From Fuerstiella marisgermanici (GTDB lineage Bacteria > Planctomycetota > Planctomycetia > Planctomycetales > Planctomycetaceae), in contig NZ_CP017641.1 of the NCBI RefSeq assembly GCF_001983935.1, forward strand, positions 6,047,001-6,111,000: 64,000 bases of DNA, given 5' to 3'. The position numbers were made by a program, and so were the translations under genes. Shown piece by piece: positions 6,358 through 58,043 of this stretch (its first letter is position 1; each line of letters opens with the position of its first letter). The notes beneath the pieces were generated by a model, which made no database searches, had not been told where the DNA came from, and worked only from the letters and a program-made list of their open reading frames with translations.

Positions 6358-6670
6358 GAAGAACTTCCGACGGCGAAGCGAACATTAGAACTGCGGCACC
6401 GCTGTTCAGGCAATAGGCATTGCGCAATTTCACGAAAGATTTACCTTCGCCCACGACGATTTCACAAGTTACTACGCGAATGAACCATCAAACGTTGACA
6501 GCCTCCGAGTGAAAATCGTTTTTTCAGTATCCCGGGATGATCGAAATTTTGTTGGCATATCCTTCCTCCGCCGAGCTAGACTCTCCCAGGGGCAGTTACT
6601 CTCTTCACTGAAGGATGTCGCCGCTCTCTATATCCACCTCGTATCATTTTATGCCAGGGAAGAGTTCCCG
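6358..6670. promoter_or_regulatory. Divergent intergenic region
   Basis: These 313 bases separate the divergently read Cys/His-rich gene (minus) and DUF1559 gene (plus), so promoters for both must lie here or the plus-strand leader is long. The plus-strand frame is open back to about 6509 but is not DUF1559-like before residue MQAYPQ. GGGAAGAG sits about 7 bases before ATG 6671. No single promoter hexamer pair stands out by eye. Confidence 0.4.
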
Positions 6671-7687
6671 ATGCAAGCTTACCCGCAACGCCCCTCCTCC
6701 AGTGTCACGCGAAGTGGATTTACGCTTATCGAATTGCTGGTCGTCATTGCAATTATCGGGATCCTCATCAGCCTGCTGATGCCAGCCGTACAGCAGGCAA
6801 GGTCAGCGGCGCGGCGGATGCAGTGCTCCAATAATTTGAAGCAGCTAGCTCTGGCCGCTCATTCGTTTCACGATACGTATCAGGCGTTTCCGCCGGCTCG
6901 GTTGATTCTGGACACTCCAAGAACACAGAACGACACGGCAACACGCATTGCCATGGATGAACCATCGTGGCTGGTTCGGCTTCTGCCTTTTTTGGAGCAA
7001 TCAGCGCTGCACAATAGCTGGGATGAGTACGCCGTTTACGGAACTCATCCGGCGTCCGTGCGTAATCAAACGCTTTCTGTTTTCCTCTGCCCGGAACGCC
7101 ACAGTCCTGATGCGGCAGTTGCACCAGACAAGACCATCCGAATCACAACAGCGTGTGGTTGCCCTGCCGGAGTACAGTTCTCTCCCGGCGGTGCTATTGT
7201 GGACTACGTGGCCAACCACGGCGATCTCTCACCAGGCGCTTTGGGACTGTCGACAGATTTTTACTGGGGTGGCAACGGCACCGGTGTGATTATTTCCAGT
7301 CGTCCCGTCGGCGATGAAACAGCAATCCGGCGCGACTGGCTCGACAAGGTCGCGATGTCTGACGTGAGCGACGGAACGAGCAACACGATCCTGATCGGAG
7401 AACCGCACGTCCCTTTCGACGAAGATCTGACAACACCATTCAACGGTCCTGCTTACTACGGTCGGCATCTCACTAACTTTTCGCGCATCGGTGGACCAGG
7501 CGTTCCCATCGCCCACGATCGGAATGACCAACGAGCAGGCGTGTACTCCTTCGGAAGTTCCCACAGCGGCATTGTGCATTTCGCTTTGACTGACGGAAGC
7601 CTACGGGCTGTCTCAACTTCGCTCAGCACTCGCGTCCTCGGCCACCTGACGAACCGCAGTGACGGCGAGGTTGTGGGCGAGTATTAA
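6671..7687 (+). CDS. DUF1559 prepilin-like protein
   Basis: A 338-residue DUF1559 protein. The N-terminus has the type IV pilin-like segment SGFTLIELLVVIAIIGILIS followed by MPAVQQARSAARRMQCSNNL. The central SNTILIGEPH and the C-terminal HFALTDGSLRAVS are the usual family landmarks. The Gly before Phe in SGFTLIE is the expected prepilin peptidase position. The start at ATG 6671 is preferred because GGGAAGAG precedes it and the family begins a few residues before the GFTLIE motif. A lipoprotein gene follows after 10 bases, the standard arrangement in planctomycetes. Function of the family is unknown. Confidence 0.93.
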   Translation: MQAYPQRPSSSVTRSGFTLIELLVVIAIIGILISLLMPAVQQARSAARRMQCSNNLKQLALAAHSFHDTYQAFPPARLILDTPRTQNDTATRIAMDEPSWLVRLLPFLEQSALHNSWDEYAVYGTHPASVRNQTLSVFLCPERHSPDAAVAPDKTIRITTACGCPAGVQFSPGGAIVDYVANHGDLSPGALGLSTDFYWGGNGTGVIISSRPVGDETAIRRDWLDKVAMSDVSDGTSNTILIGEPHVPFDEDLTTPFNGPAYYGRHLTNFSRIGGPGVPIAHDRNDQRAGVYSFGSSHSGIVHFALTDGSLRAVSTSLSTRVLGHLTNRSDGEVVGEY

Positions 7688-7697
7688 GGGCAAGCGA

Positions 7698-8120
7698 ATG
7701 CGGCAAACTCTATATCTGATTTTAACCGCCCTGGCCGTTGGCTGCGGATCTGACCGAGTACCAACTTACCCTGTCAGCGGGCGCGTCGTCTTCGCAAATG
7801 GCAACCCCGTTCGCCACGGCACCGTGGAACTGATGTCGGTTGAACACAACACGGCAGCAACAGGAAAAATTGATCACGACGGCGGCTTCGTATTAGGCAC
7901 CTACACACCCAACGACGGAGCGACCCCCGGTGCACACGATGCAATCGTCGTGCAAATGGTTATCGACGACGGCTCGTTTGAACACACAGTCGATCACGGA
8001 GACAAGGTGCCTACCAAACACGCTGCCTACGAAACATCAGGCCTCACAGTTGCAGTGGAGCACGATCAAGAAAACGTCATCACAATCACGATTGACGCTC
8101 AAATGCCCCACGGGCGCTGA
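7698..8120 (+). CDS. Small lipoprotein, carboxypeptidase-regulatory-like fold
   Basis: A 140-residue exported lipoprotein. The N-terminal signal sequence ends in a lipobox (LTALAVGC, Cys at about residue 18), so it is predicted to be lipid-anchored. The mature part starts YPVSGRVVFANGNPVRHGTVEL, the typical beginning of a transthyretin/carboxypeptidase-regulatory-like beta-sandwich found beside DUF1559 genes (shown here only in part: VSGRVVFANGNPVRHG). It starts 10 bases after the DUF1559 stop, so the two are likely co-transcribed. The stop lies 26 bases upstream of the left end of the IS3-family element, so the gene is intact but its downstream sequence was interrupted. Confidence 0.82.
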   Translation: MRQTLYLILTALAVGCGSDRVPTYPVSGRVVFANGNPVRHGTVELMSVEHNTAATGKIDHDGGFVLGTYTPNDGATPGAHDAIVVQMVIDDGSFEHTVDHGDKVPTKHAAYETSGLTVAVEHDQENVITITIDAQMPHGR

Positions 8121-8217
8121 CTCGACAAAAGTTGCGACGGCTCACCTGGCATGCTCCCCTTGAACAGGTCCATCATTATGAGAGTCTACTGACGAATTTA
8201 TTCTCAGGAGACTCAGG

Positions 8218-8502
8218 ATGTCGGAGAAACGTAAACGTCACACTCCGGAACAGATTGTTCGGAAGCTTCGTGATGCGGATGCGATGCTGACGAGCGGCAA
8301 GTCGCTCGGTGAGGTTGTTCAATCGCTGGCTGTCAGTGAAGCGACGTATCATCGCTGGCGTCAGCAGTACGGCGGGATGAAGGCCGAGGAAGCAAAGCGT
8401 CTGAAGGAACTGGAAGTTGAGAACGCTCGGCTTAAGAAGCTGCTTGCGGAAGCGGAACTCGACAAGGCAATGCTGAAGGAGATCGCGGAGGGAAACTTCT
8501 GA
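8218..8502 (+). CDS. IS3-family transposase OrfA
   Basis: A 94-residue OrfA. It has a helix-turn-helix DNA-binding part (EQIVRKLRDADAML, VSEATYHRWRQQYGG) and a C-terminal leucine-zipper-like coiled coil (LKELEVENARLKKLLAEAEL) used for multimerisation in IS3-family transposases. AGGAGACTCAGG precedes the ATG. The frame ends GAG GGA AAC TTC TGA, which places a GGGAAAC heptamer in the right phase for a -1 ribosomal frameshift into orfB. It is identical at protein level to the copy at 12516-12800. Confidence 0.93.
   Translation: MSEKRKRHTPEQIVRKLRDADAMLTSGKSLGEVVQSLAVSEATYHRWRQQYGGMKAEEAKRLKELEVENARLKKLLAEAELDKAMLKEIAEGNF
8490..8496 (+). promoter_or_regulatory. Candidate -1 frameshift heptamer in IS3 copy 1
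   Basis: The heptamer GGGAAAC is in the X-XXY-YYZ phase relative to orfA (G GGA AAC) and lies two codons before the orfA stop. The orfB frame is -1 relative to orfA and is open through this point without a stop. A slip would give a fused OrfAB protein, the usual active transposase of IS3 elements. The same site is at 12522-12528 in copy 2. No downstream stem-loop was worked out. Confidence 0.55.
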
Positions 8503-8534
8503 CGGTCTCCCGGAAACGCGAGGCCGTCAAACAT

Positions 8535-9386
8535 GTGCAGGAGAAGTTCGACGTTTCGGAACGTCACGCGTGCCGAACGGTTGGTCAGCATCGTTCGGTT
8601 CATCGTCGTGAACCCGTTGTTCGCGATGATGAGGCGGCGTTGGTGAAGCGAATGCTGGAGCTGGTTCGTGAGCATCCGCGATTTGGTTATCGGCGTATCT
8701 GTCGTCTTCTTCGTCGCGAAGAATTCGTGGTGAACAGGAAGCGAATGTATCGCCTTTGGCGTCGTGAAGGCCTGAAGGTCTGTCGACGAACGAAGAAGCG
8801 GCGTGGCACTGGCGGCAGTAAAAACGCTTGTCATGTTCACCGATCGCGGGGAAAAAACGACGTATGGGCGTGGGATTTTGTGTTTGACTACACAACGAAT
8901 GGAACTCAGTTGAAGTGGCTGACCGTTGTTGACGAATTCACTCGGGAGTGCGTTGCGTTGAAAGTTTCTCGCAGTATCAAAGCCGACGACGTGATCGACA
9001 CGTTGTGTGAATTGATCGCTGCTCGCGGTGTTCCGAACCACATTCGCAGCGACAACGGCCCAGAGTTTATCGCGAAGGCGATTGGCAAGTGGCTGAAACA
9101 AACAGGCGTCTCGGCGCTGTACGTCGAGCCGGGATCGCCGTGGCAGAACGGGTATTCCGAGAGTTTCAATTCGAAGCTTCGCGATGAATTTCTGAACGTG
9201 GAAGAGTTTGAAAGTGTTCGCGATGCCGTACAGATGACGAAGGAATTTCAACGTCAGTACAACGAAGTTCGTCCGCACAGCGCGTTGGACTACCAGACAC
9301 CGAATGAGTTCGCGGCGATGCAGCCTTCGGTTCGAGCTCGACAGACGGGAGCCGCCCCGACCACCTTCGCCATCACCTCGACCTGA
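8535..9386 (+). CDS. IS3-family transposase OrfB (DDE integrase core)
   Basis: Catalytic subunit with the retroviral-integrase (rve) fold. An HTH_21-like region (VREHPRFGYRRICRLLRREE) precedes the core. The DDE residues are visible in WDFVFDYTTNG with TVVDEFTRE, in RSDNGPEF, and in WQNGYSESFNSKLRDEF. The first possible initiation codon in frame is GTG 8535, but the frame is open upstream to the orfA overlap, so the natural product is probably the OrfAB frameshift fusion. The 283 residues are identical to those of 11632-12483. Confidence 0.93.
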   Translation: MQEKFDVSERHACRTVGQHRSVHRREPVVRDDEAALVKRMLELVREHPRFGYRRICRLLRREEFVVNRKRMYRLWRREGLKVCRRTKKRRGTGGSKNACHVHRSRGKNDVWAWDFVFDYTTNGTQLKWLTVVDEFTRECVALKVSRSIKADDVIDTLCELIAARGVPNHIRSDNGPEFIAKAIGKWLKQTGVSALYVEPGSPWQNGYSESFNSKLRDEFLNVEEFESVRDAVQMTKEFQRQYNEVRPHSALDYQTPNEFAAMQPSVRARQTGAAPTTFAITST

Positions 9387-9517
9387 GCTCCGCGTTGAAG
9401 GCCGAGGCGACAGCGAAGGCGGACGGGGCTCAGCACAACTTGTTTGGAAGATTATTCAATACCAATGTCAGCCCACAACTCTCATAACAACCGGACCTAA
9501 TCTCGGGGGCAGCCCAC

Positions 9518-9871
9518 ACCTTGACAGGCCAATCATTTACGATCCGGGAACGAAAACGTTCGAGGTCCAATCGAACAACGAGAACTGTTCCAATTTCAGA
9601 CAGTCTTGGAGTCATTATCGAGGATTGGCTATCAGTGAAGCGAGCATGCCGATTCACCTTTCCCGAAGATCACCGAAGCGTGCGGATGCAAAAACCGGAC
9701 GGAGAGAAAACAGAGATAAAGCCATTCGAAGCGTCCAATTTCCTCAACAGCGTTTTATCGGGTTCCGAATGGGAACCCGTCCGGGGCTGGCACGTCTTCC
9801 GCCACAGCTTTATCAGCAATTGTGCGTCTCAGGGAGTTGACCAGCGATTCATTGATGAATGGGTTGGCACC
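9518..9871 (+). pseudogene. Tyrosine recombinase, middle/C-terminal fragment
   Basis: About 118 codons of a phage-type integrase catalytic domain, read on the plus strand directly after IS3 copy 1. It begins LTGQSFTIRERKRSR, continues RTVPISDSLGVIIEDWL, and contains the box II motif GWHVFRHSFISNCASQGV with catalytic H-x-x-R. It ends at the ISAs1 element in FIDEWVG; the last 12 bases here lack one G compared with the duplicate at the other end of that element. The N-terminal part is on the opposite strand at 12872-13685 and the last 30 codons are at 11163-11252. Confidence 0.85.
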
Positions 9872-11162
9872 CAGGGCCAGCGCGCACTTTGGGCAATTTA
9901 GGCTGGCGCGACAAGTGAGTATTGGTTAGTCTTTTCGTGTCGTAACATCGGACTTCACGAGGAGAGGACAAGAGATGTCGACAGTTGAACTGGCGGTCAC
10001 CCAGGAGCTGACAGGAAACATTGTTCATTACTTTGATCAATTGAAAGACCCGCGTTCCAACATCAATCGTCTGCATCTGCTTGGTGATGTGATTGTGATC
10101 GCCATTTGCGGAGTGCTGGCCAACGCCGACGGCCCCAGTGCGATTGCGGAATGGGCGCGACTGAATGCCGATGGCCTGCAGAAACACCTGGCACTTCCGC
10201 ATGGCATTCCGAAAAAAGATACGTACCGGCGCGTCCTTTCTCTCCTGAAGCCGAACGACTTTCAAGCGTGCTTCGTGCAATGGATTGAATCGCTGGAAGG
10301 ACTTTCCGACGAACAGAAAGAAGGCTACAGAAAACAGATTGCGATTGATGGCAAAGCACTCCGTCGATCACATGACAAAAAGAATGGGCTGGGTGCGTTG
10401 TTCATCGTGAGTGCGTGGGCTTCTGATCAGGGGATTTCTCTGGGACAGGTGGCGACGGAAGAGAAGTCGAACGAGATCACCGCGATCCCGAAATTACTGA
10501 ACGAAATCAATATCGATGAGGCGATCATTACGATTGACGCAGCGGGTTGTCAAAAAAACATTGCGCAGCAGATCGTGTCTGGCAATGCAGACTATGTGTT
10601 AGCCCTGAAAGGCAACCAACCGAAACTCTATGAGGTCGTGCAGAAGTTTTTTCTCGATCACCTGGAGGATGACTTCGCTCGCTGTCCCGTCAGTCGCTAT
10701 GAAGAAACAGAGAAGGGACACGGTCGGCAGGAACAGAGAATCTACTATCAGGCGACCGTGCCTGTCGATTTTGACGTGGGCCACAAATGGGCCGGACTCA
10801 AGACCATCGGAACGGCGATCCGAATGTACGAGCAGGACGGCATTCATCATTCTGACGTTCGCTACTACATCAGCAGTCTGCGTCGCAAAGGCGAGCTGTT
10901 CGCAACAACGGTTCGTGGTCACTGGGCCATAGAAAACACGCTGCACTGGAGTCTCGACATGACCTACCGCGAGGATGAGAGTCGAGTCCGAAACCGAATC
11001 TTCGCGAACAATTTGTCATGGCTCAGACGACTCACACTCAGCCTCATCAAGAAACATCCTGGCAAACAAAGCAACGTCATGAAAAGAAGAATGGCCGGAT
11101 GGAACATTGACTATTTGATGCAAATCCTTACCGGCAAAACAACTTAGTATGCGCTGGCCCTG
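9872..11162 (+). mobile_element. ISAs1-family insertion sequence
   Basis: A 1,291-bp element with 12-bp perfect inverted ends, CAGGGCCAGCGC at 9872 and its complement ending at 11162. It carries one DDE transposase gene. The flanks are gttggcacc (9863-9871) and gttgggcacc (11163-11172): a 9-10-bp target duplication that differs by one G. ISAs1-family elements typically make 8-10-bp duplications. The element interrupts an integrase gene within the conserved W-V-G-H motif. Confidence 0.9.
9975..11147 (+). CDS. ISAs1-family transposase
   Basis: A 390-residue transposase of full family length. The N-terminal part (YFDQLKDPRSNINRLHLLGD) matches the DDE_Tnp_1-associated domain. The DDE catalytic residues fit IAIDGKALRRSHD, TIDAAGCQKNIA and GHWAIENTLHWSLD. 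GAGGAGAGGAC lies just upstream of ATG 9975. The stop is 15 bases inside the right end of the element. The gene looks intact, so the element may still be mobile. Confidence 0.95.
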   Translation: MSTVELAVTQELTGNIVHYFDQLKDPRSNINRLHLLGDVIVIAICGVLANADGPSAIAEWARLNADGLQKHLALPHGIPKKDTYRRVLSLLKPNDFQACFVQWIESLEGLSDEQKEGYRKQIAIDGKALRRSHDKKNGLGALFIVSAWASDQGISLGQVATEEKSNEITAIPKLLNEINIDEAIITIDAAGCQKNIAQQIVSGNADYVLALKGNQPKLYEVVQKFFLDHLEDDFARCPVSRYEETEKGHGRQEQRIYYQATVPVDFDVGHKWAGLKTIGTAIRMYEQDGIHHSDVRYYISSLRRKGELFATTVRGHWAIENTLHWSLDMTYREDESRVRNRIFANNLSWLRRLTLSLIKKHPGKQSNVMKRRMAGWNIDYLMQILTGKTT

Positions 11163-11252
11163 GTTGGGCACCAGACCGACGAGCAGCGTCGGCGTTATCG
11201 GCATCTCTTTCCGGACTCACAGATTCAAGCCATCAATGGTGTCTTCAAGTGA
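11163..11252 (+). pseudogene. Tyrosine recombinase, extreme C-terminal fragment
   Basis: Thirty codons (including the stop) directly after the ISAs1 element read VGHQTDEQRRRYRHLFPDSQ and end in NGVFK. This supplies the third catalytic His (VGH) and the nucleophilic Tyr (RRRY) of a tyrosine recombinase. It continues in phase from the fragment ending at 9871 once the ISAs1 insertion and its target duplication are removed. The following 249 bases up to the second IS3-family copy hold no recognisable gene. Confidence 0.85.
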
Positions 11253-11631
11253 TCCTGTTTGGCAAAGCCTAGCTTACAGACAATTGCTGCCAAGCAAGCT
11301 TGAGCGGAATCGCAAGAACGCAGAAATTGTGGCTTCTCATCAATTAGCCAATCTGGCCCCGTATTACCGCGCCGTACTCAAAGAAGATTCTCCTATTCTG
11401 ATTCTTCACCAAAACTCTAACTTCAAACAAGAGTCTAAAGACATCAAGACGCAGTCAATCAATAATAATATTCCACGGCGGCGTTGTCTTCTGCACGCGT
11501 CTGGGCAGCCCCCGAGATTAGGTCCGGTTGTTATGAGAGTTGTGGGCTGACATTGGTATTGAATAATCTTCCAAACAAGTTGTGCTGAGCCCCGTCCGCC
11601 TTCGCTGTCGCCTCGGCCTTCAACGCGGAGC

Positions 11632-12483
11632 TCAGGTCGAGGTGATGGCGAAGGTGGTCGGGGCGGCTCCCGTCTGTCGAGCTCGAACCGAAGGCTGCAT
11701 CGCCGCGAACTCATTCGGTGTCTGGTAGTCCAACGCGCTGTGCGGACGAACTTCGTTGTACTGACGTTGAAATTCCTTCGTCATCTGTACGGCATCGCGA
11801 ACACTTTCAAACTCTTCCACGTTCAGAAATTCATCGCGAAGCTTCGAATTGAAACTCTCGGAATACCCGTTCTGCCACGGCGATCCCGGCTCGACGTACA
11901 GCGCCGAGACGCCTGTTTGTTTCAGCCACTTGCCAATCGCCTTCGCGATAAACTCTGGGCCGTTGTCGCTGCGAATGTGGTTCGGAACACCGCGAGCAGC
12001 GATCAATTCACACAACGTGTCGATCACGTCGTCGGCTTTGATACTGCGAGAAACTTTCAACGCAACGCACTCCCGAGTGAATTCGTCAACAACGGTCAGC
12101 CACTTCAACTGAGTTCCATTCGTTGTGTAGTCAAACACAAAATCCCACGCCCATACGTCGTTTTTTCCCCGCGATCGGTGAACATGACAAGCGTTTTTAC
12201 TGCCGCCAGTGCCACGCCGCTTCTTCGTTCGTCGACAGACCTTCAGGCCTTCACGACGCCAAAGGCGATACATTCGCTTCCTGTTCACCACGAATTCTTC
12301 GCGACGAAGAAGACGACAGATACGCCGATAACCAAATCGCGGATGCTCACGAACCAGCTCCAGCATTCGCTTCACCAACGCCGCCTCATCATCGCGAACA
12401 ACGGGTTCACGACGATGAACCGAACGATGCTGACCAACCGTTCGGCACGCGTGACGTTCCGAAACGTCGAACTTCTCCTGCAC
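11632..12483 (-). CDS. IS3-family transposase OrfB, copy 2
   Basis: 283 residues identical to the OrfB at 8535-9386, with the same DDE motifs (RSDNGPEF; WQNGYSESFNSK). It is read in the -1 frame relative to its orfA (12516-12800). Identity across the whole element means the copies separated recently or are kept alike by gene conversion. Confidence 0.93.
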   Translation of the reverse strand: MQEKFDVSERHACRTVGQHRSVHRREPVVRDDEAALVKRMLELVREHPRFGYRRICRLLRREEFVVNRKRMYRLWRREGLKVCRRTKKRRGTGGSKNACHVHRSRGKNDVWAWDFVFDYTTNGTQLKWLTVVDEFTRECVALKVSRSIKADDVIDTLCELIAARGVPNHIRSDNGPEFIAKAIGKWLKQTGVSALYVEPGSPWQNGYSESFNSKLRDEFLNVEEFESVRDAVQMTKEFQRQYNEVRPHSALDYQTPNEFAAMQPSVRARQTGAAPTTFAITST

Positions 12484-12515
12484 ATGTTTGACGGCCTCGC
12501 GTTTCCGGGAGACCG

Positions 12516-12800
12516 TCAGAAGTTTCCCTCCGCGATCTCCTTCAGCATTGCCTTGTCGAGTTCCGCTTCCGCAAGCAGCTTCTTAAGCCGAGCGTTCTCA
12601 ACTTCCAGTTCCTTCAGACGCTTTGCTTCCTCGGCCTTCATCCCGCCGTACTGCTGACGCCAGCGATGATACGTCGCTTCACTGACAGCCAGCGATTGAA
12701 CAACCTCACCGAGCGACTTGCCGCTCGTCAGCATCGCATCCGCATCACGAAGCTTCCGAACAATCTGTTCCGGAGTGTGACGTTTACGTTTCTCCGACAT
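12516..12800 (-). CDS. IS3-family transposase OrfA, copy 2
   Basis: 94 residues identical to the OrfA at 8218-8502: helix-turn-helix followed by a leucine-zipper-like coiled coil. The GGGAAAC heptamer before its stop lies at 12522-12528 on the minus strand. Confidence 0.93.
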   Translation of the reverse strand: MSEKRKRHTPEQIVRKLRDADAMLTSGKSLGEVVQSLAVSEATYHRWRQQYGGMKAEEAKRLKELEVENARLKKLLAEAELDKAMLKEIAEGNF

Positions 12801-48803: not shown

Positions 48804-49361
48804 TTTAGATTCAGAGTTATTGGTAAAAACAGGTGTCAGTACGTTTCCAGCACTTGTCCGCACACGCCGTGCCGAAGTTCGCGCACTCGTTACAGCGAAT
48901 CTCGCTGACTTGTGGCCGCGAGACAAGCGTTTCAGACGACGAAGGCTGTTTCCCACGAGCCCGAACCGTCCACAGCAAGAGGGAGACTGCTCTGGTCGCC
49001 GCTTCACATCGCTATGATCAATGTCGACGCCGCTGTATGCGGAAATCGAGCATTGCTGTGAATTCATGCCCTTCATTTGCCCGGGCACGCGACTTTCCCG
49101 TACGATGGAACCCGGTGCAGTTGCGCGTCGTCATTTGATCCCGGCATCGTAGAAGACTTTGCCCGCCCACTCGCAAAAACCTGCACCGCTGAAGACGACC
49201 TTCGCGTTTCGGGTCGGCCCGTTCTTCCTGCCGACAGAAGCTCACGAAAGCCCACCAGCACTGTGACACCGACAGTTGCCGATTCCGCACCGCCTCGATA
49301 GTGTGGTGGTGCAATTGTGTACGAGTTATCCCGCAATTCTCCCCCGTTGAAAGCCCACCCC
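48804..49361. promoter_or_regulatory. Divergent intergenic region, 558 bases
   Basis: Separates the transporter (minus) from the Tat-exported propeller gene (plus). It should hold both promoters. The minus-strand frame of the transporter stays open to 49088 but is Arg/Ser-rich without features. No RNA gene or strong palindrome was seen. Confidence 0.4.
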
Positions 49362-50945
49362 ATGCCAACCCGTCGAAACTTCCTGCAATCTGCCGCGGCT
49401 GTCACTGTCGCAGGCCTGGCATCTTCGAAACACGTCGCCTCTGCTGACGAATCAAAATCGGAAGGGCCAATCAGCATCGGCGGTCGCCGAGAACTTTTCG
49501 TTGATGACGCGCTGATCGAAACTCTTTCCGGCGGAGCCACTCAACAATTACAGCACCCGGTTCCGCGCGAAGTTGCATTGGTCCACGACGAACCGTGGGA
49601 AGGCACCGGGTGTGGCTATCACAGCGTGTTTCAGGACGGCGACCTGTACCGCATGTATTACAAAGCGTGGCATCTGGACTTCTCCACCGGCAAACTCAAC
49701 ACGGGCACTCATCCGTTGTTCTGCTGCTACGCCGAAAGTGACGACGGCGTTTCCTGGCGCAAACCGATGCTCGGCCTCCATGAATTCAAGGGTTCCAAGC
49801 AGAACAACATCACCATCACAAGCGGCAAGCTCGGGCCGCTGAACGTCGACGCAGGACATCCGGCCATCTTCAAAGATGACAATCCGAACGCGCCTGCCGA
49901 TGCGAAGTACAAAGCCATTCTACGGTCCAGCAACCCCAATGGATTGTTGCCGTTCAAGTCGGCCGACGGAGTGAACTGGTCGCCCATGACGGATGCTCCA
50001 ATTTTGCGAGGACTGGGCGCATTCGATTCGCAGAACCTGGCGTTCTGGGATCCGAACATCGGCAAGTACCGAGCTTACTGGCGGATCTTTACGGCCGGCG
50101 TCACCAACGAAAAAAACTGGAAACCCGCCGGTATTCGAGCCATCCGCACGGCCACGTCTGACGACCTGATCACCTGGAGCCCACACACAGACATCACGTA
50201 CGAAGATTCGCCGCCAGAAGAACTGTATACCAACCAGATCAAACCCTATCATCGAGCACCGCATTTGCTGCTGGGCTTTCCTGCCCGCTACGTCGATCGC
50301 GGCTGGTCAGAATCGATGAAGGCTCTGCCAGCACTTCAGCAACGTGAGATGCGATCAAAGTCCTCACCGCGATATGGCACAGCCGTCACCGATGCGCTGT
50401 TCATGGCGAGTCGCGATGGCAAAATGTTCAAGCGTTGGAACGAAGCCTTTCTGCGCCCCGGAATCGAACGAGCGGAGGCATGGCACTATGGTCACCAGTA
50501 CATCGGCTGGCATCTCGTCGAAACGCCAGGCGATCTTCCCGGAGCTCCGCCCGAATTATCACTCTACGCGACCGAAAGTTATTGGCACGGCAAAGGCAGT
50601 GCCGTACGTCGGCACACGCTGCGGCTCGATGGTTTCGTATCGGTGAACGCTCCGGCCGGGCAGGGCGGTGAGTTACTCACAAAACCACTGACCTTCACCG
50701 GCGACGAGCTTCATCTGAACTTCGCCACATCAGCGGCGGGCAGTGTGAAGGTCGAACTGCAATCCGCCGATGGCTCGGCAGTCGACGGGTTCGCTCTGGA
50801 CGACTGCGAAGAACTGTTTGGAGACACGGTCGATCGAGTTGTTCGGTGGAAGAACGGCACAAACGTGTCCTCACTTGCCGGTCAGCCAGTGCGATTGCGG
50901 GTCCAGCTCAAGGACGCCGACCTGTATTCGCTGCAATTTGCGTAG
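49362..50945 (+). CDS. Tat-exported GH32/43-like beta-propeller protein
   Basis: A 527-residue protein with a twin-arginine signal (PTRRNFLQSAAAVTVAGLAS). The mature part begins GRRELFVDDALIETLSGG and has propeller-like blades with repeated 'SDDGVSWRKP', 'SADGVNWSPMTDAPILRG' and 'TSDDLITWSPHTD' units, as in five-bladed glycosidase folds (GH32/GH43/GH130). The C-terminus (about 110 residues) is a small beta-sandwich. Related planctomycete proteins are annotated as glycosyl hydrolase-like, without demonstrated activity. I could not identify catalytic acids with confidence. It precedes the DUF1501 gene by 93 bases on the same strand. Confidence 0.8.
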   Translation: MPTRRNFLQSAAAVTVAGLASSKHVASADESKSEGPISIGGRRELFVDDALIETLSGGATQQLQHPVPREVALVHDEPWEGTGCGYHSVFQDGDLYRMYYKAWHLDFSTGKLNTGTHPLFCCYAESDDGVSWRKPMLGLHEFKGSKQNNITITSGKLGPLNVDAGHPAIFKDDNPNAPADAKYKAILRSSNPNGLLPFKSADGVNWSPMTDAPILRGLGAFDSQNLAFWDPNIGKYRAYWRIFTAGVTNEKNWKPAGIRAIRTATSDDLITWSPHTDITYEDSPPEELYTNQIKPYHRAPHLLLGFPARYVDRGWSESMKALPALQQREMRSKSSPRYGTAVTDALFMASRDGKMFKRWNEAFLRPGIERAEAWHYGHQYIGWHLVETPGDLPGAPPELSLYATESYWHGKGSAVRRHTLRLDGFVSVNAPAGQGGELLTKPLTFTGDELHLNFATSAAGSVKVELQSADGSAVDGFALDDCEELFGDTVDRVVRWKNGTNVSSLAGQPVRLRVQLKDADLYSLQFA

Positions 50946-51038: not shown

Positions 51039-52388
51039 ATGCTGAATATCCTGAGCCCGCTCAGCAATCGTCAATCCTTCTGCGATCGCATCGGCCGACG
51101 CCGTATGCTGCAAATTGGTTCTGTCGGTATGTTCGGCCTCAACCTTCCGGGGCTGCTGAAGGCTGAACAGTCGGCGGGGCATCCAGCGGCGTCTACAAAG
51201 AAATCTGTCATCCTTGTCTGGATGCACGGTGGACCATCGCAGCTTGATACTTTCGACATGAAGCCCGAAGCTCCGAAGGAATACCGAGGAGCGTTTTCGC
51301 CGATCGCCACCAACCTGCCGGGGCTGGACATCTGCGAACTGTTGCCTGAACACGCGAAGGTGATGGACAAGTGTACGGTCATCCGCAGCTTCAGCCATGG
51401 CAACGGCGATCACTGGGCGGCTGCCCACTGGATGCTGACCGGGCACCTCGGTGCAAACGGCAGCGACCGAGCACCTCGGCAGCCATCTATGGGAGCCGTC
51501 GCGTCGCATCTGCTTGGACCGACCATGCCGGGTTCGCTGTCCAGCGTCAACATGAACGACGGTGGCTTCGGGTTTCATGGCGGAGCGTGGCTGGGCGTTG
51601 ATCACAACCCGTTCCGGTACGGCGAATTCAGCTACGGCAATGAAGCCGGACGATTGCCATCCGGCGACCACAAAAGCTTCGCGCTGGTCGACGGTTTGTC
51701 TGAGCAGCGTATGGTGAATCGAGTGGCCCTTCAAAAACAACTCGATTCAGTAAGAAAGCAGATCGACCGCAATCGCACGTTCGACGCGATGGACGCGGTC
51801 AACCAGCAGGCCTTGGACATCGTGCTGTCCGGCAACGTTCGCAAAGCGTTCGACGTGCCTCAGGAAGATCCCAAACTGCGAGCTCGCTACGGCGAAGGCT
51901 GGGGCGAACAAGCGCTGCTCGCTCGCCGACTGATTCAGGCGGGCGTCCGTTATGTGTCACTAAACACCGGCTACTTCGATGATCACGGGAACATCGAACC
52001 CGCATTAAAAAACAAGTTGCCTCGGCACGACAAAGCTGTCGGTGTGTTGATTCAGGATCTGGCCGAACGAGGCATGCTGGATGACACGCTGGTCGTCGTC
52101 GCCGGAGAATTCGGGCACACGCCGCGCATCAACGCCAACGCCGGTCGAGATCATTGGCCTCAAGCGCAAAGCATCCTGCTTGCCGGAGGCGGCTATCGTC
52201 ACGGCCAGGTGATCGGCAGCACCAACGACAAAGCCGAACACCCGACGTCTCGCAAGATCGGAGTCGAAGATTTCTGTGCAACGGTCTACCACGCGATGGG
52301 TCTGACGAAAAACGATCAGTTAATCGACCTGTCCGGCCGCCCCGTCAACCTGCTGCCCAGCGGTGAAGTTCCACACGAATTATTGTAG
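51039..52388 (+). CDS. DUF1501 domain-containing Tat-exported protein
   Basis: A 449-residue DUF1501 protein, a sulfatase/alkaline-phosphatase-superfamily relative abundant in planctomycetes. The N-terminus has a twin-arginine motif (GRRRMLQIGSVGMFGLNLPG). Family landmarks are VILVWMHGGPSQLDTFDMKP, RSFSHGNGDH, GEFGHTPRINANAGRDHWP and SILLAGGG. The C-terminus ends VNLLPSGEVPHELL. Its function is unproven; the fold suggests an exported hydrolase. Its last 38 coding bases and the following 15 bases are duplicated at 56507-56560. Confidence 0.93.
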   Translation: MLNILSPLSNRQSFCDRIGRRRMLQIGSVGMFGLNLPGLLKAEQSAGHPAASTKKSVILVWMHGGPSQLDTFDMKPEAPKEYRGAFSPIATNLPGLDICELLPEHAKVMDKCTVIRSFSHGNGDHWAAAHWMLTGHLGANGSDRAPRQPSMGAVASHLLGPTMPGSLSSVNMNDGGFGFHGGAWLGVDHNPFRYGEFSYGNEAGRLPSGDHKSFALVDGLSEQRMVNRVALQKQLDSVRKQIDRNRTFDAMDAVNQQALDIVLSGNVRKAFDVPQEDPKLRARYGEGWGEQALLARRLIQAGVRYVSLNTGYFDDHGNIEPALKNKLPRHDKAVGVLIQDLAERGMLDDTLVVVAGEFGHTPRINANAGRDHWPQAQSILLAGGGYRHGQVIGSTNDKAEHPTSRKIGVEDFCATVYHAMGLTKNDQLIDLSGRPVNLLPSGEVPHELL

Positions 52389-52397
52389 CTCATCTCT

Positions 52398-52508
52398 GCG
52401 GCGGATCAAAAAGCGACCGAACTGGCTCGCGCCGCTCACAAGCAGGGGGTGGCGATCGATGGGCTGCCCCAATTCCACTACCGCAACGATGAGTGGCATG
52501 GGTATCCC
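52398..52508 (+). pseudogene. Fragment of the exported-protein gene found intact at 56604
   Basis: Directly after the DUF1501 stop, 111 bases encode AADQKATELARAAHKQGVAI and GLPQFHYRNDEWHG, which match AADQKATELARAAHKQAAAI and GLPRFYYRVNEWHG of the gene at 56604-58043. The start codon, signal peptide and everything after the WHG motif are missing. The join to the DUF1501 downstream sequence occurs at a GCGGCG shared by both partners, which suggests a deletion of about 250 bases by microhomology. Confidence 0.88.
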
Positions 52509-52594
52509 AATACGAGTACCAGATCACCGTATTGCTGCCTTCGTTGACGAACGCGTGCCTCTGAAGCGCAGCCGTGTCATCCCAATCGCCCGAT

Positions 52595-53740
52595 TCACTG
52601 CGGCAACGATGTCTGCTTTCTTCTGGCCTTGAGCCAGAAGACTACGACCGAGATGACAATGGCCGTATTGAGGACAATCAGCCAAGGAAAAGGCGTCGAC
52701 TTCGGAGCTTGTGAAATATTAACGATTTGGTTGCCAACGAAGAGCGGTTCGCCCCCCAAACGGACATTACCTTCACCGATCGTGTATGCGACTCCCTCAA
52801 TCGCGTCCACGACCTCAGTGCCTTCCGGGAATACCACTCTCACATCAGCTTCAGTTACTGCACCCATTTCAATATTTTGAGCAGTCGTTTCGATGACGTT
52901 TACGGCACTTGGCATTGCATCGCCGAAGCTGGACGAACCGATAATCTCAGTGATTTTGGTTGGCATCCATAGTCCATCGAATTGTTGTGTTTCGTCGACA
53001 GAGAACTCTTCACTTCGCCAGCCGTTGTCGTCTTCCCATCGTGCTTCTCCGCGAACCGGCATATAACCTCTAGCCGGATCGAGCCAGACGTGTTTGTCGC
53101 CAATTGCTCTGTTTCGACTGTGTAAAGGCTTCCACGGAACGGACAGTTTAACCAAGCTGGGTTCGTTCTCGGTCGTAAGTGTCCAATCGTCTTTGTCCTT
53201 TAACAGGTATGTAAACAGAAACTCGGAGTCCGGCACATCGGCCCCCGTCAGCCAGTAGGAGTAACGATCATGAACAATGACGATATCCTGCTTCGTATCG
53301 ATTCGGGCCGTGATTTTTCCGGATGGTTGTTGGACACGGACCCGCGATACTCCCTCGTCCGCATTGAAACCTGACTGAATTAACGGCGGTTTAGATTTCG
53401 CTTCCAAATCTTCACCAAACTGCTTAGTGTCGACACGATACGACTCACCCAGCCTGTGCCGCTGAAAGTCAGTTCGTCCGCCGGGCCAGATAACCTTGCC
53501 CAACTTCCCGTTCGTCCGGTTCTGGACTCTGACGAAAACTGAGCTTTCGTAAGAGAGATTCGCAGTCTTCTGTAGCCTGTGCTCAAAGGCTGCTGCAAGA
53601 AGTTCCCGCTGATCGGCCAGTGACAATTTTCGAAATTCTGCCAAAGCCAAAGTCTGCATCTCGTCGGAGCTGGCGGAACCTCCCCACACAACAACCGAGA
53701 TCACAAGAGAAACGATGTAACTTCCAGTGTGCTTCTTCAT
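52595..53740 (-). CDS. Exported protein of unknown function with C-terminal TM helix
   Basis: A 381-residue protein with signal peptide MKKHTGSYIVSLVISVVVWG, a helix region (ALAEFRKLSLADQRELLAAA), a beta-rich domain and a C-terminal membrane anchor (FPWLIVLNTAIVISVVVFWL) with a basic tail. Segments such as KHVWLDPARGYMPVRGEARW and FDGLWMPTKITEI resemble outer-membrane-lipoprotein-sorting (LolA/LolB-like) beta folds, and a similar pattern occurs in the gene at 56604. AAGGTGA lies about 7 bases before ATG 53740. It lies in the block bracketed by the duplication, on the strand opposite to its neighbours. No function can be assigned. Confidence 0.75.
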   Translation of the reverse strand: MKKHTGSYIVSLVISVVVWGGSASSDEMQTLALAEFRKLSLADQRELLAAAFEHRLQKTANLSYESSVFVRVQNRTNGKLGKVIWPGGRTDFQRHRLGESYRVDTKQFGEDLEAKSKPPLIQSGFNADEGVSRVRVQQPSGKITARIDTKQDIVIVHDRYSYWLTGADVPDSEFLFTYLLKDKDDWTLTTENEPSLVKLSVPWKPLHSRNRAIGDKHVWLDPARGYMPVRGEARWEDDNGWRSEEFSVDETQQFDGLWMPTKITEIIGSSSFGDAMPSAVNVIETTAQNIEMGAVTEADVRVVFPEGTEVVDAIEGVAYTIGEGNVRLGGEPLFVGNQIVNISQAPKSTPFPWLIVLNTAIVISVVVFWLKARRKQTSLPQ

Positions 53741-54632
53741 TGTGCTCACCTTTCACTGACATGTTTGGAATTCGTTCTGCGTTGCTGCTCCAGCACCACG
53801 CTGCTCCGGTATTTTTACCGGGGTGGAATGCCTGGCTGATGAGTTTTTTGTCTGGTCGAGTTACCCGCACACGGTCAGGCCAGTTCGGTCAATTCGACTG
53901 CAACGATTTTGTCCAAATCCTCACGTGACGCCACTTGACCGCAGGATTGCCGCAGGGTTACCCTACAGTATTGCCTAACGAGCCCCTCTCATGCCACCGA
54001 TATTGATCGGTGTTTTCCGTTCGACCACCGGATTCGACACGATGAGTTTTGCTCAACGAATTTTCCCCGATGGCTCGTCGCCGCCCGTGACTCCCTTCGT
54101 GGGTGATGTTTTCACAACCGGGCGAATTACCCAGCATGGTGATGTTGCGAACCGTATTTGTGTCTTTGGTTTGGGCATTCGCTTCGCTCGAAAAGATTCA
54201 ATGCTATGCGAAGGACCTCAAAACTGCGTTGCTGGTGAGTGTGCGTGTTCTGCTTGCGCTGGTCGCGTTATGTTTTTTCAAACGCCGGAGACGGTGATGG
54301 AACTTTCACGCCACAATTGATCATTGGAAAGGCTGGCCAATGCGTGTGAGCATAAATAATTGCGGTCCGCTATTGGCCGCCGCGAATGTGCCAGCTTTGT
54401 TGTTTGGCCCTGGTAGCTGTACTGCAGAGGTCGTGTCGCTGACCGTCGTCATTGACGTTCTGCGAATTCGAAAATTCATTCTTAGCTGACTCGGCCATAT
54501 CTCCGCCTCAAGAACCATGGCGCGGGCACGGCGTTCTGGACACAACGTTCGGAGAAATTTAGATACAGGAACTGTCGACAGGTATCGTTAATGGTGGTGG
54601 CGTTGCCGGCTTGACCGACGAGGGAAAATGGC
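53741..54632. other. Intergenic region, 892 bases
   Basis: Between the minus-strand exported protein gene and the plus-strand DUF1559 gene. Short frames exist, one of them a 64-codon hydrophobic frame at 54103-54297 (SLVWAFASLEK, LVSVRVLLALVALCFFKRRRR) that could be a small membrane protein. It lacks a clear ribosome binding site, so I do not call it. A small hairpin CCGGTA-TTTT-TACCGG is near 53813. The region may be a decayed gene. Confidence 0.4.
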
Positions 54633-55781
54633 ATGAGACAGCAATCTCTGAGTCGCAGCAAACGCAGGGCACCAAGTGCTTCTGCAGTAATTCTTCCCGA
54701 TAGAATGGGGTGCTCGTGGTACCCCTGCCATACGCCGTGTCCTGGCGAAAATGCGAAACGCGGGCGGCGCGGATTCACAGTCATTGAATTGATGGTGGTG
54801 ATAGGCATCATTGCATTATTGATGGCGTTGATTGTTCCGGCAGTGATGAACGCTCGCGGGGCGGCCCGGCGGACTCAGTGTCAGAACAACCTGAAGAATC
54901 TGGGACTGGCGATGGTCAATGAGGCCGAATCGCAGAAGCGGCTCCCTGCTTCGGGCTACTTTGGCAAGCAGAGTGGTTTTTATCACAACTGGGTTGTTGA
55001 TCTGCTGCCGTGGATTGATCAGCAAACGCTTGCCGACCGATGGGACAAGGACCAGACATACGATCTTCCGGGACATGTGAAGCTGGCGAGTACTCAGATT
55101 CCTGTGCTTGTGTGTCCGGAGGACGTGAGCGCTACTGGAAGCGGTGATCTGAGTTACGCAGTCAACGGCGGTTTTGGCTGGACGACGGCTCGAGGCCTGG
55201 AACAGATTCGTGGCCAGTTTGATTTGAATAGTGACGGGCAGTCGAACCCGGATGTTGGTTCGCCGAGTGACCGTGACCTGATGTACAAATGCGGACTGTT
55301 TTTCAACGAAAACTGGCCGCTCGGCACAGGCAAGGCTCGGCACCACACGTTGAATACAGTTCGCGATGGCTTATCGAACACAGTGCTGATCGCGGAAAGC
55401 ATCCGTGCGGGAACAGACCCCAATGCTGAGGCATGGCAGCCCGCAAACTGGGCCTGCCCGGCGGCTTGGCGCAGCGCGTTTTATCTAAGCGGTTATGTGT
55501 GCGAAGATCTAAACTGCGGAGCAGGCCGAGTAGACTATGGCCGAGCCAACAGTCGAAGCGGGAGCTTTGCATTGGAAGCCATCAACTCGGCTCGCGAACA
55601 GGCTGAAGGGGAAGCTCCGTGGGCATCCTCGTGGCACAATGGCGGAGTGTTCACCGTCTTCGCCGATGGGCACGTTCAGTTTCTGTCTGAAGACGTGGAT
55701 GGCATGGTGTATGCCGCGATGCTAAGTCCTCAAGGCGGCCAGATCGAAGGACCGCTGGCTCAGTCGGCAACTGCTCCGTAA
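54633..55781 (+). CDS. DUF1559 prepilin-like protein
   Basis: A 382-residue DUF1559 protein. An unusually long, Arg/Ser/Cys-containing leader of about 45 residues precedes the pilin-like segment GFTVIELMVVIGIIALLMAL, followed by NARGAARRTQCQNNLKNLG. The SNTVLIAESI motif and the C-terminal FTVFADGHVQFLSEDVDG (H-x-DG type end) are present. ATG 54633 has GAGGG about 9 bases upstream; an internal ATG at codon 25 would shorten the leader. A GYF_2 protein gene follows 21 bases downstream. Confidence 0.9.
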   Translation: MRQQSLSRSKRRAPSASAVILPDRMGCSWYPCHTPCPGENAKRGRRGFTVIELMVVIGIIALLMALIVPAVMNARGAARRTQCQNNLKNLGLAMVNEAESQKRLPASGYFGKQSGFYHNWVVDLLPWIDQQTLADRWDKDQTYDLPGHVKLASTQIPVLVCPEDVSATGSGDLSYAVNGGFGWTTARGLEQIRGQFDLNSDGQSNPDVGSPSDRDLMYKCGLFFNENWPLGTGKARHHTLNTVRDGLSNTVLIAESIRAGTDPNAEAWQPANWACPAAWRSAFYLSGYVCEDLNCGAGRVDYGRANSRSGSFALEAINSAREQAEGEAPWASSWHNGGVFTVFADGHVQFLSEDVDGMVYAAMLSPQGGQIEGPLAQSATAP

Positions 55782-55802
55782 GAACCAGAGTGACACGAAA
55801 AC

Positions 55803-56372
55803 ATGAGTACTCAGTTTTACAGGCAGGCACCTGACGGCAGCGAGACCGGGCCGTTCACACATGAGGGTCTGCGTGCCGCAGTGTTGTCTGGAGACCTCAC
55901 CGAAGCCGACGAGGTGCGTTCCGAGGCAAGTACGCTGTGGGTCGGGGCGGGGCACATCAAGGGGCTGTTTCTCGGCGAGGCGGCCGAGAAACAGCCCGTG
56001 GATTCTGACGATGCCCGGCGAGCGGCCTACGACGCGCAGTTGGAAGCTCTTCGAACTGGAGCTTACGAACGCGCGGAGCAGTCGCGTCGGCAAGGGCGAT
56101 CGGCTGCATGGTGGCATGATCCTGTTGGCTGGGAAGTCTACGTTGCCATATTGCTGGTGATGGTGGGCGTGATCTATTCCGTATGGGAAACACCTGAACA
56201 TGTGCGATTTCCGCTTCCGAAGCGAATGGGCGGTCCAGTTCAGCAGGGGAACTTCTTTTTCGGAACAGGGCCGTGGTCGACTCTTGAGTATCTACTGCTG
56301 TGGCTTGATGCCGTCGTGGTGATCAGCGGTTTGGCATTTGGGCGGATGATCCTGACATCCAGACGCAAATGA
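55803..56372 (+). CDS. GYF_2 (DUF4339) domain membrane protein
   Basis: A 189-residue protein. Residues 1-60 form a GYF_2 domain (FYRQAPDGSETGPFTHEGLR, GDLTEADEVRSEASTLWV), followed by an amphipathic charged helix (AAYDAQLEALRTGAYERAEQ). Two TM helices follow (VYVAILLVMVGVIYSVWE and YLLLWLDAVVVISGLAFG). GYF_2 domains are thought to mediate protein contacts, possibly with Pro-rich peptides. It starts 21 bases after the DUF1559 gene and is likely co-transcribed with it. The role is unknown. Confidence 0.8.
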   Translation: MSTQFYRQAPDGSETGPFTHEGLRAAVLSGDLTEADEVRSEASTLWVGAGHIKGLFLGEAAEKQPVDSDDARRAAYDAQLEALRTGAYERAEQSRRQGRSAAWWHDPVGWEVYVAILLVMVGVIYSVWETPEHVRFPLPKRMGGPVQQGNFFFGTGPWSTLEYLLLWLDAVVVISGLAFGRMILTSRRK

Positions 56373-56506
56373 GCCACAGCACGCGGCTTTGAATCGCCTG
56401 TAAGAAATTCTCCAGGACTCTGCTGTTAGAAAGTCAAGGCGATGCCTTCGAACATTATTTGCCTGGCGAATCGATTTGCCTTCGCGCTTGTTGTCGCCCT
56501 ATTCCT

Positions 56507-56560
56507 CTGCTGCCCGGCGGTGAAGTTCCACACGAATTGTTGTAGCTCGTCTCTGCGGCG
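56507..56560 (+). repeat. Duplicated 3' tail of the DUF1501 gene
   Basis: These 54 bases match 52350-52403, the end of the DUF1501 gene and its downstream bases, with 3 mismatches by eye. It still reads LLPGGEVPHELL followed by TAG, and it lies 44 bases upstream of ATG 56604. It is a remnant without a promoter or upstream coding part. Confidence 0.9.
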
Positions 56561-56603
56561 TCGAGCATGGGCTTATTTCAACCAAAACTTCTGAGGATTC
56601 GCC

Positions 56604-58043
56604 ATGCCTGCAATCAAACCGCCGACACAGTCGGCCACGCGCGTTATGTCGACGCGGGAATGGCATCAGTCGGGAAGATCGAGCCACCGCCGGACCGCAC
56701 GCCTTGCGGTGGCAACTTTGCTGCTCGCGATTAGCGTGGTCACGTGTCTGTTCAGCGTTCCCCGCCCGGCTTCCGCACAAACTGCGAATGCAGAGGCAGA
56801 GGCAACGTTATCAGCGGCGGATCAAAAAGCGACCGAACTGGCTCGCGCTGCTCACAAACAGGCGGCGGCGATCAACGGGCTGCCCCGATTTTACTACCGC
56901 GTCAATGAGTGGCACGGCATGGTGGAACGAATGCGAGCTCGGCCGCAACCTACAATCAAAATCCTGGCTCTTGCTCTGAGGGGAACCGTCAAGGCGCCAG
57001 CTGAGGGAGACAGTTCAAACGTTGAGGAATCCAGCGTTGGGGCGGTCGGTGGCGGAGTTGGCTACGACGGTGCGAAAAGTTCCCTGCGCCACCGTGTGGA
57101 AGGCAAATATACGTTTGGGTGGGACGAGAATTACTTTCTGTTCCAAGGCGAGTTTGGTCGACAACCTGCCCGAGGTAAGATGGCTCAGTTTTGGACGCAC
57201 GAGGATTCATGGTGGCGCGAGGAGTATGAGGGAAGACTCCACAACATCTCGCGCGGTCCTTCAGCCTTTGCATTCTGGCAGGATGTTCGGTTTGTTTTGT
57301 TTTCATGTTACTTACGCCAGACGCCAAGAGCTTTTTGGTGGGGAAGAGCTGTTCACTCGGAACAGACGATCAGTACCTTTCCACCAGCAGAAGCCACTTG
57401 GACCATGATGGCGGCCGAAACATTTGCGGGCGAGCCCTGTTATGTCGTCGAATCTGCTCAACGACGCGAGCGCCTTTGGATTAGCAAGGCAACGGGTCGC
57501 GTCCGCGGAATCCTGAGTTACTACTACAAACAACTTCCCGATACTCCCCATTTCTTCGAAAGTGAAAACGTCGCAAAGATCGCGGGGCGGAACTTTGAAT
57601 CGAGCAATGAATATGGGCGTTGGAGTCGCCGCGAGGCGACTCCAGAACAAGTAGCGGAACTACGAGACGCCTGGGACCGGTTTATCGTCGACGGATTCCC
57701 CGAGAACGCAAAGCCTAATGAACTCATCCGTCTGGCGGACTACCGCGAAGTCAAATCCGGCGTTTGGATTCCGTTCGAAGAAGAACGTGTCAATACGCAT
57801 CCATCAGGACCAGACAAGAGCAATTACGTAAAGACCAGGATTGTCGTAGAAGCTGTTGAGTTCGACCGTTCGCTGGAAGAAGCGATTAGCAAACTAAAGC
57901 CAAAGGACGGTGACCCAATTCAGGATCGTCGTTTTGGCGGCGTAACGGTTTCCTATCGCCACGGACAACTCACCGACGCGGAAGTGAAAGCCAAAGCGGA
58001 AGCTTCGAAGGCAAAAGGCGCATTCCGCGGCGGCGTCTTTTGA
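56604..58043 (+). CDS. Exported protein of unknown function (intact member of duplicated pair)
   Basis: A 479-residue protein with a long, Arg-rich N-terminus and a hydrophobic signal (LAVATLLLAISVVTCLFSVP, ending ASAQ). Mature part: a helix AADQKATELARAAHKQAAAI, then GLPRFYYRVNEWHG, then a beta-rich region with HEDSWWREEYEGRLHNISRG, GEPCYVVESAQRRERLWISK and DYREVKSGVWIPFEEERV. The order resembles DUF1571/LolA-like or 'outer membrane lipoprotein-sorting' folds seen in planctomycete exported proteins; that is tentative. GAGG lies about 9 bases before ATG 56604. A copy of part of this gene is at 52398-52508. The likely site is the periplasm; the function is unknown. Confidence 0.82.
   Translation: MPAIKPPTQSATRVMSTREWHQSGRSSHRRTARLAVATLLLAISVVTCLFSVPRPASAQTANAEAEATLSAADQKATELARAAHKQAAAINGLPRFYYRVNEWHGMVERMRARPQPTIKILALALRGTVKAPAEGDSSNVEESSVGAVGGGVGYDGAKSSLRHRVEGKYTFGWDENYFLFQGEFGRQPARGKMAQFWTHEDSWWREEYEGRLHNISRGPSAFAFWQDVRFVLFSCYLRQTPRAFWWGRAVHSEQTISTFPPAEATWTMMAAETFAGEPCYVVESAQRRERLWISKATGRVRGILSYYYKQLPDTPHFFESENVAKIAGRNFESSNEYGRWSRREATPEQVAELRDAWDRFIVDGFPENAKPNELIRLADYREVKSGVWIPFEEERVNTHPSGPDKSNYVKTRIVVEAVEFDRSLEEAISKLKPKDGDPIQDRRFGGVTVSYRHGQLTDAEVKAKAEASKAKGAFRGGVF

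Follow-up and report, generated by a model that had tools for sequence, protein, structure and literature searches.

The original study of insertion with long target duplication is said to be that of Nobusato et al. (2000, Gene 259:99–108). In Helicobacter pylori, according to the parts of two reports used here, comparison of two strains revealed such insertions, often with restriction–modification genes (PMC1643837, PMC3154945). For Pseudomonas fluorescens SBW25, the portion of the account cited here places an insertion sequence (IS) at the centre of a fresh duplication, and its authors suggest entry into a break before resolution (Ngan et al. 2024, PMC11708052). For transposed genes of Arabidopsis, the sections cited describe flanking direct repeats of host sequence, which often match the orthologous site of a relative (PMC2869330). 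Our literature searches on close direct repeats, short-junction duplications and microhomology insertion found only metazoan papers or none. Here we describe a duplicated gene junction in the planctomycete Fuerstiella marisgermanici, within a 64,000-nucleotide window (positions 6047001–6111000 of the single-contig, 8.92-Mb genome; coordinates below count from the first base of the window). The region reads, in order, a DUF1501 gene (+), a gene for a probably exported protein of 382 amino acids (aa; −), a DUF1559 gene (+), a GYF_2-like gene (+) and a gene for an exported protein of 479 aa (+). The end of the first and the start of the last of these genes are present twice, on either side of the middle three, an arrangement that was probably produced by an insertion that duplicated 411 bp of its target, with a single deletion and drift thereafter.

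The locus shares with the Helicobacter cases, as far as the cited parts describe them, a chromosomal gene insert flanked by direct target copies longer than transposon footprints; unlike them, it has no empty site, and its cargo is DUF1559, a GYF_2-like protein and an exported protein (PMC1643837, PMC3154945). The long direct repeats each continue into a completed gene, and the block-left and GYF_2-like genes are absent from close relatives (0/7 congeners each); the link to restriction–modification genes, typical of such insertions but not required, is lacking, with no such family in the three block genes. As in the cited portion of the SBW25 account, the inserted DNA is central in the duplication. 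There, however, an IS and a large duplication were seen arising, whereas here a three-gene block without a transposase lies in a 411-bp duplication of an older event (PMC11708052). The Arabidopsis genes likewise moved between host-derived direct repeats, but in a eukaryote, with repeats from 15 or 30 bp up, and with recombination through circles proposed in the sections cited (PMC2869330).

The duplicated segment is seen as two matching parts, A and B (Table 1). A is identical at 51 of 54 positions, with three differences (E 8e-19), and B at 93 of 107, with 14 differences (E 6e-33), 13 of which fall in the 98 positions beyond a shared hexamer; both E-values were computed with the query stretch masked from the subject, and the next best match in the window has E 0.053. 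Similarity is limited by 52350/56507 on the left and 52501/56917 on the right. A and B are the only direct repeats of at least 45 bp in the window (blastn, E 1e-5, low-complexity filter on), and the 3′ end of the exported gene, its downstream flank and the block ends have no second copy within it. In copy 2, A and B belong to one complete stretch of 411 bp, made up of the DUF1501 end, a spacer of 58 bp and about 105 initial codons of the exported gene; in copy 1 they are joined directly. The left copy adjoins, and its part A supplies the final 39 bases of, the intact DUF1501 gene, and the right copy adjoins the intact exported gene, so that each completes its own flanking gene. The two copies thus derive from one 411-bp junction of DUF1501 followed by the exported gene. 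Chance or unrelated paralogy is refuted as a source of the similarities by these E-values, by the shared order and strand, by the inclusion of a stop codon and spacer, and by the failure to find other copies in the genome, and we give it virtually no weight.

The offset between copies is 4157 for A and 4416 for B, and the difference, 259, is the length absent from copy 1. The missing stretch takes in what is left of the spacer along with the start codon and N-terminal region of the exported gene, and in copy 2 the hexamer GCGGCG marks both of its limits, at 56555 and, 259 bp on, at 56814. Loss from copy 1 is the most likely explanation, in preference to a gain in copy 2, because the stretch includes the start codon and because two relatives of the exported protein have alignments that reach into it (beginning at window residue 30 for L085 and 23 for L091), if weakly and over a membrane-spanning stretch. 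A sequence-only reading of this DNA had proposed both matches, the GCGGCG join in copy 1, and a first copy with DUF1501 whole and a second with the exported gene whole. Each of these is present on alignment of the copies, except that the right limit of the second match had been set about 7 bases too far. That reading had also spoken of a segmental duplication of the DUF1501 tail and the following gene; the copies are indeed homologous, but the duplication visible in them covers just 411 bp and no complete gene, so it is unnecessary to suppose that two whole gene copies were lost.

Together the copies differ at 16 of 152 positions (Jukes–Cantor distance 0.11), against 56–62% at four-fold sites, near saturation, between this DUF1501 gene and six relatives; the comparison makes the duplication, by sequence divergence, much younger than the split from those relatives. 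Both copies have drifted. The remnant of the exported gene in copy 1 lacks a start codon and ends by 52501; it is in frame with DUF1501 after the TAG stop codon, probably by chance, and terminates at a TGA. Its 13 differences from the intact gene fall 4/4/5 on codon positions 1, 2 and 3, which by this weak test suggests drift without visible codon constraint. At one residue the intact exported gene has Asn where the remnant and four of six relatives (L083–L086) have Asp, so change does not appear confined to the dead copy. Copy 2 has G at position 56516, where all six relatives compared have a codon for Gly or Ala that begins with this base, and this agreement identifies copy 2, on the sequence comparison, as carrying a true DUF1501 tail; at 52359 the working gene now encodes Ser, the older base surviving in the dead tail.

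Table 1. Coordinates of the duplicated junction, the block between its copies and the genes concerned.
Feature	Position in window	Strand	Basis
DUF1501 gene, intact, 449 aa	51039–52388	+	Open reading frame (ORF); PF07394, 301.1 bits (cut-off 27)
Copy 1, part A: DUF1501 tail, stop codon, start of spacer	52350–52403	+	94% identity to 56507–56560
GCGGCG, scar of the 259-bp deletion in copy 1	52398–52403	+	Same hexamer twice in copy 2 (56555, 56814)
Copy 1, part B: truncated remnant of exported gene, codons 70–105	52395–52501	+	87% identity to 56811–56917
Block between copies, 4005 bp, read as insert	52502–56506		Similarity ends sharply on both sides
Block-left gene: probably exported protein, unknown family, 382 aa	52595–53743	−	44% relative in genome G221
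DUF1559 gene of block: pseudopilin-like, H-X9-DG end	54633–55781	+	PF07596, 139.9 bits; PF07963; TIGR04294; 72% relative in G221
GYF_2-like gene of block, 189 aa	55803–56372	+	PF14237, 23.5 bits, under cut-off of 25.8; 49% relative adjoining DUF1559 in G221
Copy 2, part A: end of DUF1501 with its stop codon, rest of the gene absent	56507–56560	+	Match to copy 1
259-bp stretch of copy 2 missing from copy 1	56555–56813 (equivalently 56561–56819)	+	Repeat offsets, hexamers
Copy 2, part B	56811–56917	+	Match to 52395–52501
Exported-protein gene, intact, 479 aa	56604–58043	+	ORF

We then consider the block itself. A DNA search of the genome with 52340–56940 returned, beyond the locus, only 18 matches to the DUF1559 start (68–74%) and one internal hairpin. 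Among 170 family genomes, counting this one, the block-left gene occurs in 12 and GYF_2 in nine. DUF1559 is a common family, with a best congener match of 50% (12 candidates scored per genome). DUF1559 lies close to GYF_2 in three of the eight other GYF_2-bearing genomes. In G221 (identities of 72% and 48%) and G422 (50% and 30%) the two genes are neighbours transcribed in the same direction; G402 has them pointing in opposite directions on a contig of 5.4 kb, near whose edge lies the C-terminal portion of a block-left relative (31%, E 2e-6). The absence of the GYF_2-like and block-left genes from seven congeners, and the presence of DUF1559 and GYF_2 together in three genomes, fit the block as a newcomer, and to judge from these comparisons it looks like part of a family gene neighbourhood brought to a new place. 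It would have arrived as one piece.

The surroundings of these relatives recur in part. Upstream of DUF1559, G221 encodes a glycosyltransferase of PMT_2 type, a C39 peptidase and two proteins that match no Pfam family; similar glycosyltransferase reading frames stand upstream by eye in G402 and G422, whose scanned parts gave no PMT_2 match, and a neighbourhood of glycosyltransferase, DUF1559 and GYF_2 recurs in other family genera (L082, L212, L213). The window block has none of these upstream genes, and the best of many weak matches to remnants of the glycosyltransferase or C39 genes of G221 in the 880-bp gap at 53750–54632 (E 0.011 in a small search) was taken as chance. The gene at 49359–50942, adjacent to relatives of the block-left gene in L088 and L089, was considered as a tie of that gene to the site and dropped, since it is often multi-copy within a genome (five matches here) and the neighbours are only 45–47% alike. 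Base composition differs just mildly, the GC content at third codon positions being 0.55 (block-left gene), 0.56 (exported gene) and 0.59–0.68 (nine other measured genes). The block-left protein gave nothing above cut-off in the Pfam scan and has no significant similarity to the exported protein; the G221 relative of the GYF_2-like protein is likewise under the Pfam cut-off (24.0 versus 25.8 bits). PHROGs matches are confined to the N-terminal part of DUF1559, one of them a named pilin. Rfam and tandem-repeat scans around the locus gave nothing, and promoter and terminator scans gave 4 and 8 sites where 3.4 and 7.6 were expected. Inside the GYF_2-like gene, 55956–56003 forms a strong inverted repeat (21-nucleotide arms, 90% complementary, 6-nucleotide loop). 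The sole other repeat pair in the window is inverted (8144–9519/11499–12874, 1376 bp, 99.9% identical) and possibly represents two copies of an IS element.

The target before the event is deduced from the two copies alone, because the uninterrupted junction of DUF1501 and the exported gene was found in no genome. Orthologues of DUF1501 (68–82%) occur in six of seven congeners. A scan of named genomes kept 80 of 141 matching DUF1501 loci; there were 86 entries (80 distinct, six being congener contigs again), of which 76 have at least 1.5 kb downstream, and named loci extend about 9 kb either side at most. At E 1e-4, the exported gene, the block-left gene, DUF1559 and GYF_2 were near DUF1501 in none of the 80 distinct loci. 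The exported gene itself was found in 10 of 397 class genomes searched, this one included (E 1e-5). Nine other genomes thus have it, and in the six of these examined with 18 kb of context it never adjoins DUF1501, the nearest pair being about 7.5 kb apart (L087); a scan of genome contigs with the exported protein gave no relative. The order proposed in the sequence-only reading, DUF1501 and then the exported gene, therefore holds in that both copies derive from such a junction, and finds no echo in relatives; as far as sequences go, it is known from the two copies only.

How the layout arose is best explained, in our view, by entry of DNA from elsewhere at the junction. The ancestor would have had DUF1501 and, 58 bp past its stop codon, the exported gene. 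Some 4 kb of DNA with three genes from elsewhere would have entered the junction, and the same event would have duplicated 411 bp of the target, leaving the insert between two direct copies of the junction and both flanking genes alive. A later deletion between GCGGCG hexamers 259 bp apart would have removed the segment of the left copy that served no further use (spacer, start codon and N-terminal region), and both copies would have drifted. The two copies, their extents, the missing 259 bp with its hexamers, the differences and the intact genes on both sides are read directly from the DNA, and one insertion–duplication event plus one deletion explain everything seen. That a single event made both the duplication and the insertion is our inference, and the repair route may have been capture of DNA at a break with long single-stranded ends that were then filled in, or capture by a duplication in progress.

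A larger tandem duplication of DUF1501, the exported gene and a neighbouring block, followed by complementary losses in which most of the exported gene vanished from the first copy, most of DUF1501 from the second, and one of the blocks as well, would yield the same two remnants, and tandem duplication is common in bacteria. The genome even holds, at L259, a gene-fragment copy about 2 kb from its parent. Yet this course calls for at least three large deletions ending just outside intact genes, against one event and one deletion; no further duplicated sequence exists in the window at the block ends, the exported gene's 3′ end or its downstream flank; block genes are near DUF1501 in none of the 80 distinct loci; and 4005 bp of unrelated sequence separates the copies, which a simple head-to-tail duplication does not leave. 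Where the sequence-only reading had the block inserted or duplicated at the junction, insertion is favoured, because our search of the genome found no second block and DUF1559 and GYF_2 are paired in three other genomes; we regard the tandem route as unlikely. Somewhat less likely still is single-crossover (Campbell-type) integration of a circle carrying the block and a 411-bp junction copy. Ordinary homologous recombination would then give the observed layout in one step, but the circle must already carry the junction, of which no other copy was found in the genome; the exported gene lies beside DUF1501 in none of the six relatives examined, and no known replication, integrase or transfer family is found in the three block genes.

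Flanking direct repeats generally signal insertion, and so could in principle betray a transposon or other dedicated mobile element. Usual target duplications, though, are far shorter than 411 bp. None of the marks of such elements (transposase, terminal inverted repeats, short target duplication) is seen: the three block genes, one of them without any family, include no recognised transposase, integrase, replication, transfer or restriction–modification family; the block has no terminal inverted repeats, 305 of 500 shuffles scoring as high; and no other copy of it was found in the genome. We hold this origin to be highly improbable.

Several observations weigh against the insertion that we prefer. 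The uninterrupted junction turned up in no genome, and the congeners cannot serve as an empty site because the exported gene is absent from all seven. No single piece of DNA was found that could be the source of the block: five of the eight other GYF_2 genomes lack a DUF1559 of the window type within about 1.5 kb (in one of them the GYF_2 match was not recovered at E 1e-3), the block-left relative of G221 is on another contig, and in G402 the left gene and GYF_2 have other orientations. Microhomology at the insertion junction cannot be judged after 10% drift. Finally, a control of 80 stretches of 20 kb from the same genome (blastn pairs of at least 45 bp, at least 82% identical, with at least 800 bp between copies) contained no second clear case of the layout, though two L265 repeat copies flank cas9.

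The control stretches held 17 direct and two inverted pairs, whose classes were assigned by eye. Eleven direct pairs lie in apparently repetitive genes (six in L249, four in L293, one in L271), two in the repeated element around cas9 (L265) and one each in L259, L277, L281 and L282. L281 is an apparent within-protein repeat, and L277 and L282 are apparent dispersed intergenic repeats. The pair in L259 is a 164-bp fragment of a TPR-CHAT-like gene (14461–14624/16492–16655, 85% identical), which stands 2 kb downstream of its intact parent, behind a 231-aa gene, a layout different from that of the present locus. In L265 (G000:C1:6480001-6500000), the region 6443–12776 has three copies of a ~110–150-bp repeat around cas9 and an array of about 66-bp period at 12017–12776. 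By eye, we take the ORF at 6593–9745 to be Cas9-like, that at 10592–11632 to be Cas1-like, and a 217-aa ORF between cas9 and cas1 presumably to resemble a REP-associated transposase.

The exported protein belongs to no Pfam family. In its relatives (L083–L087 and L091) it is a domain within larger open frames, behind an ECF sigma factor (L083 by Pfam, L084 by eye), an M56/BlaR1 peptidase (L085 by Pfam, L086 and L087 by eye) or a protein kinase (L091, Pfam). L083 has a thioredoxin-like end by Pfam, and L085 has thioredoxin and redoxin matches just under cut-offs. It may be an extracytoplasmic sensor domain that signalling proteins of planctomycetes have in common. Single-sequence structure prediction gave a useless model (mean predicted local distance difference test score 35.5), and a profile of the protein and its relatives matched nothing reliably among solved structures, the best hit being an outer membrane lipoprotein-sorting protein (E 0.13).

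The duplication is real, and the sequence-only reading of it, partly supported, was largely right; relatives with the block ancestral and the repeats unrelated, which it had named as counter-evidence, were not seen. We also considered a broader idea, that a DUF1559–GYF_2 unit and neighbouring exported-protein genes move among planctomycete chromosomes without a transposase, driven by repair and duplicating hundreds of target bases. Its odds are lowered because the units in L082, L212 and L213 have no flanking direct repeats, two of the three being cut by a contig end beside the unit. Seventeen 16-kb stretches around the 18 DUF1559 matches in the genome also gave no direct pair of at least 45 bp, at least 82% alike and 800 bp apart. 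We think the idea a long shot; if it were true, similar scars would be expected beside other copies of the unit in the phylum.

The event is of a known, ordinary kind, though its scar is clear, and it leaves the view of the genes involved unchanged. A likely consequence is that the exported gene no longer belongs to the transcription unit of DUF1501 and instead follows DUF1559 and GYF_2 on the same strand. The locus would add a planctomycete to the pattern described in Helicobacter and, should a closer strain be sequenced, provides a ready place for a test. Well preserved, it records the entry of a gene block into a bacterial chromosome without a visible transposase, with duplication, microhomology deletion and decay all readable.

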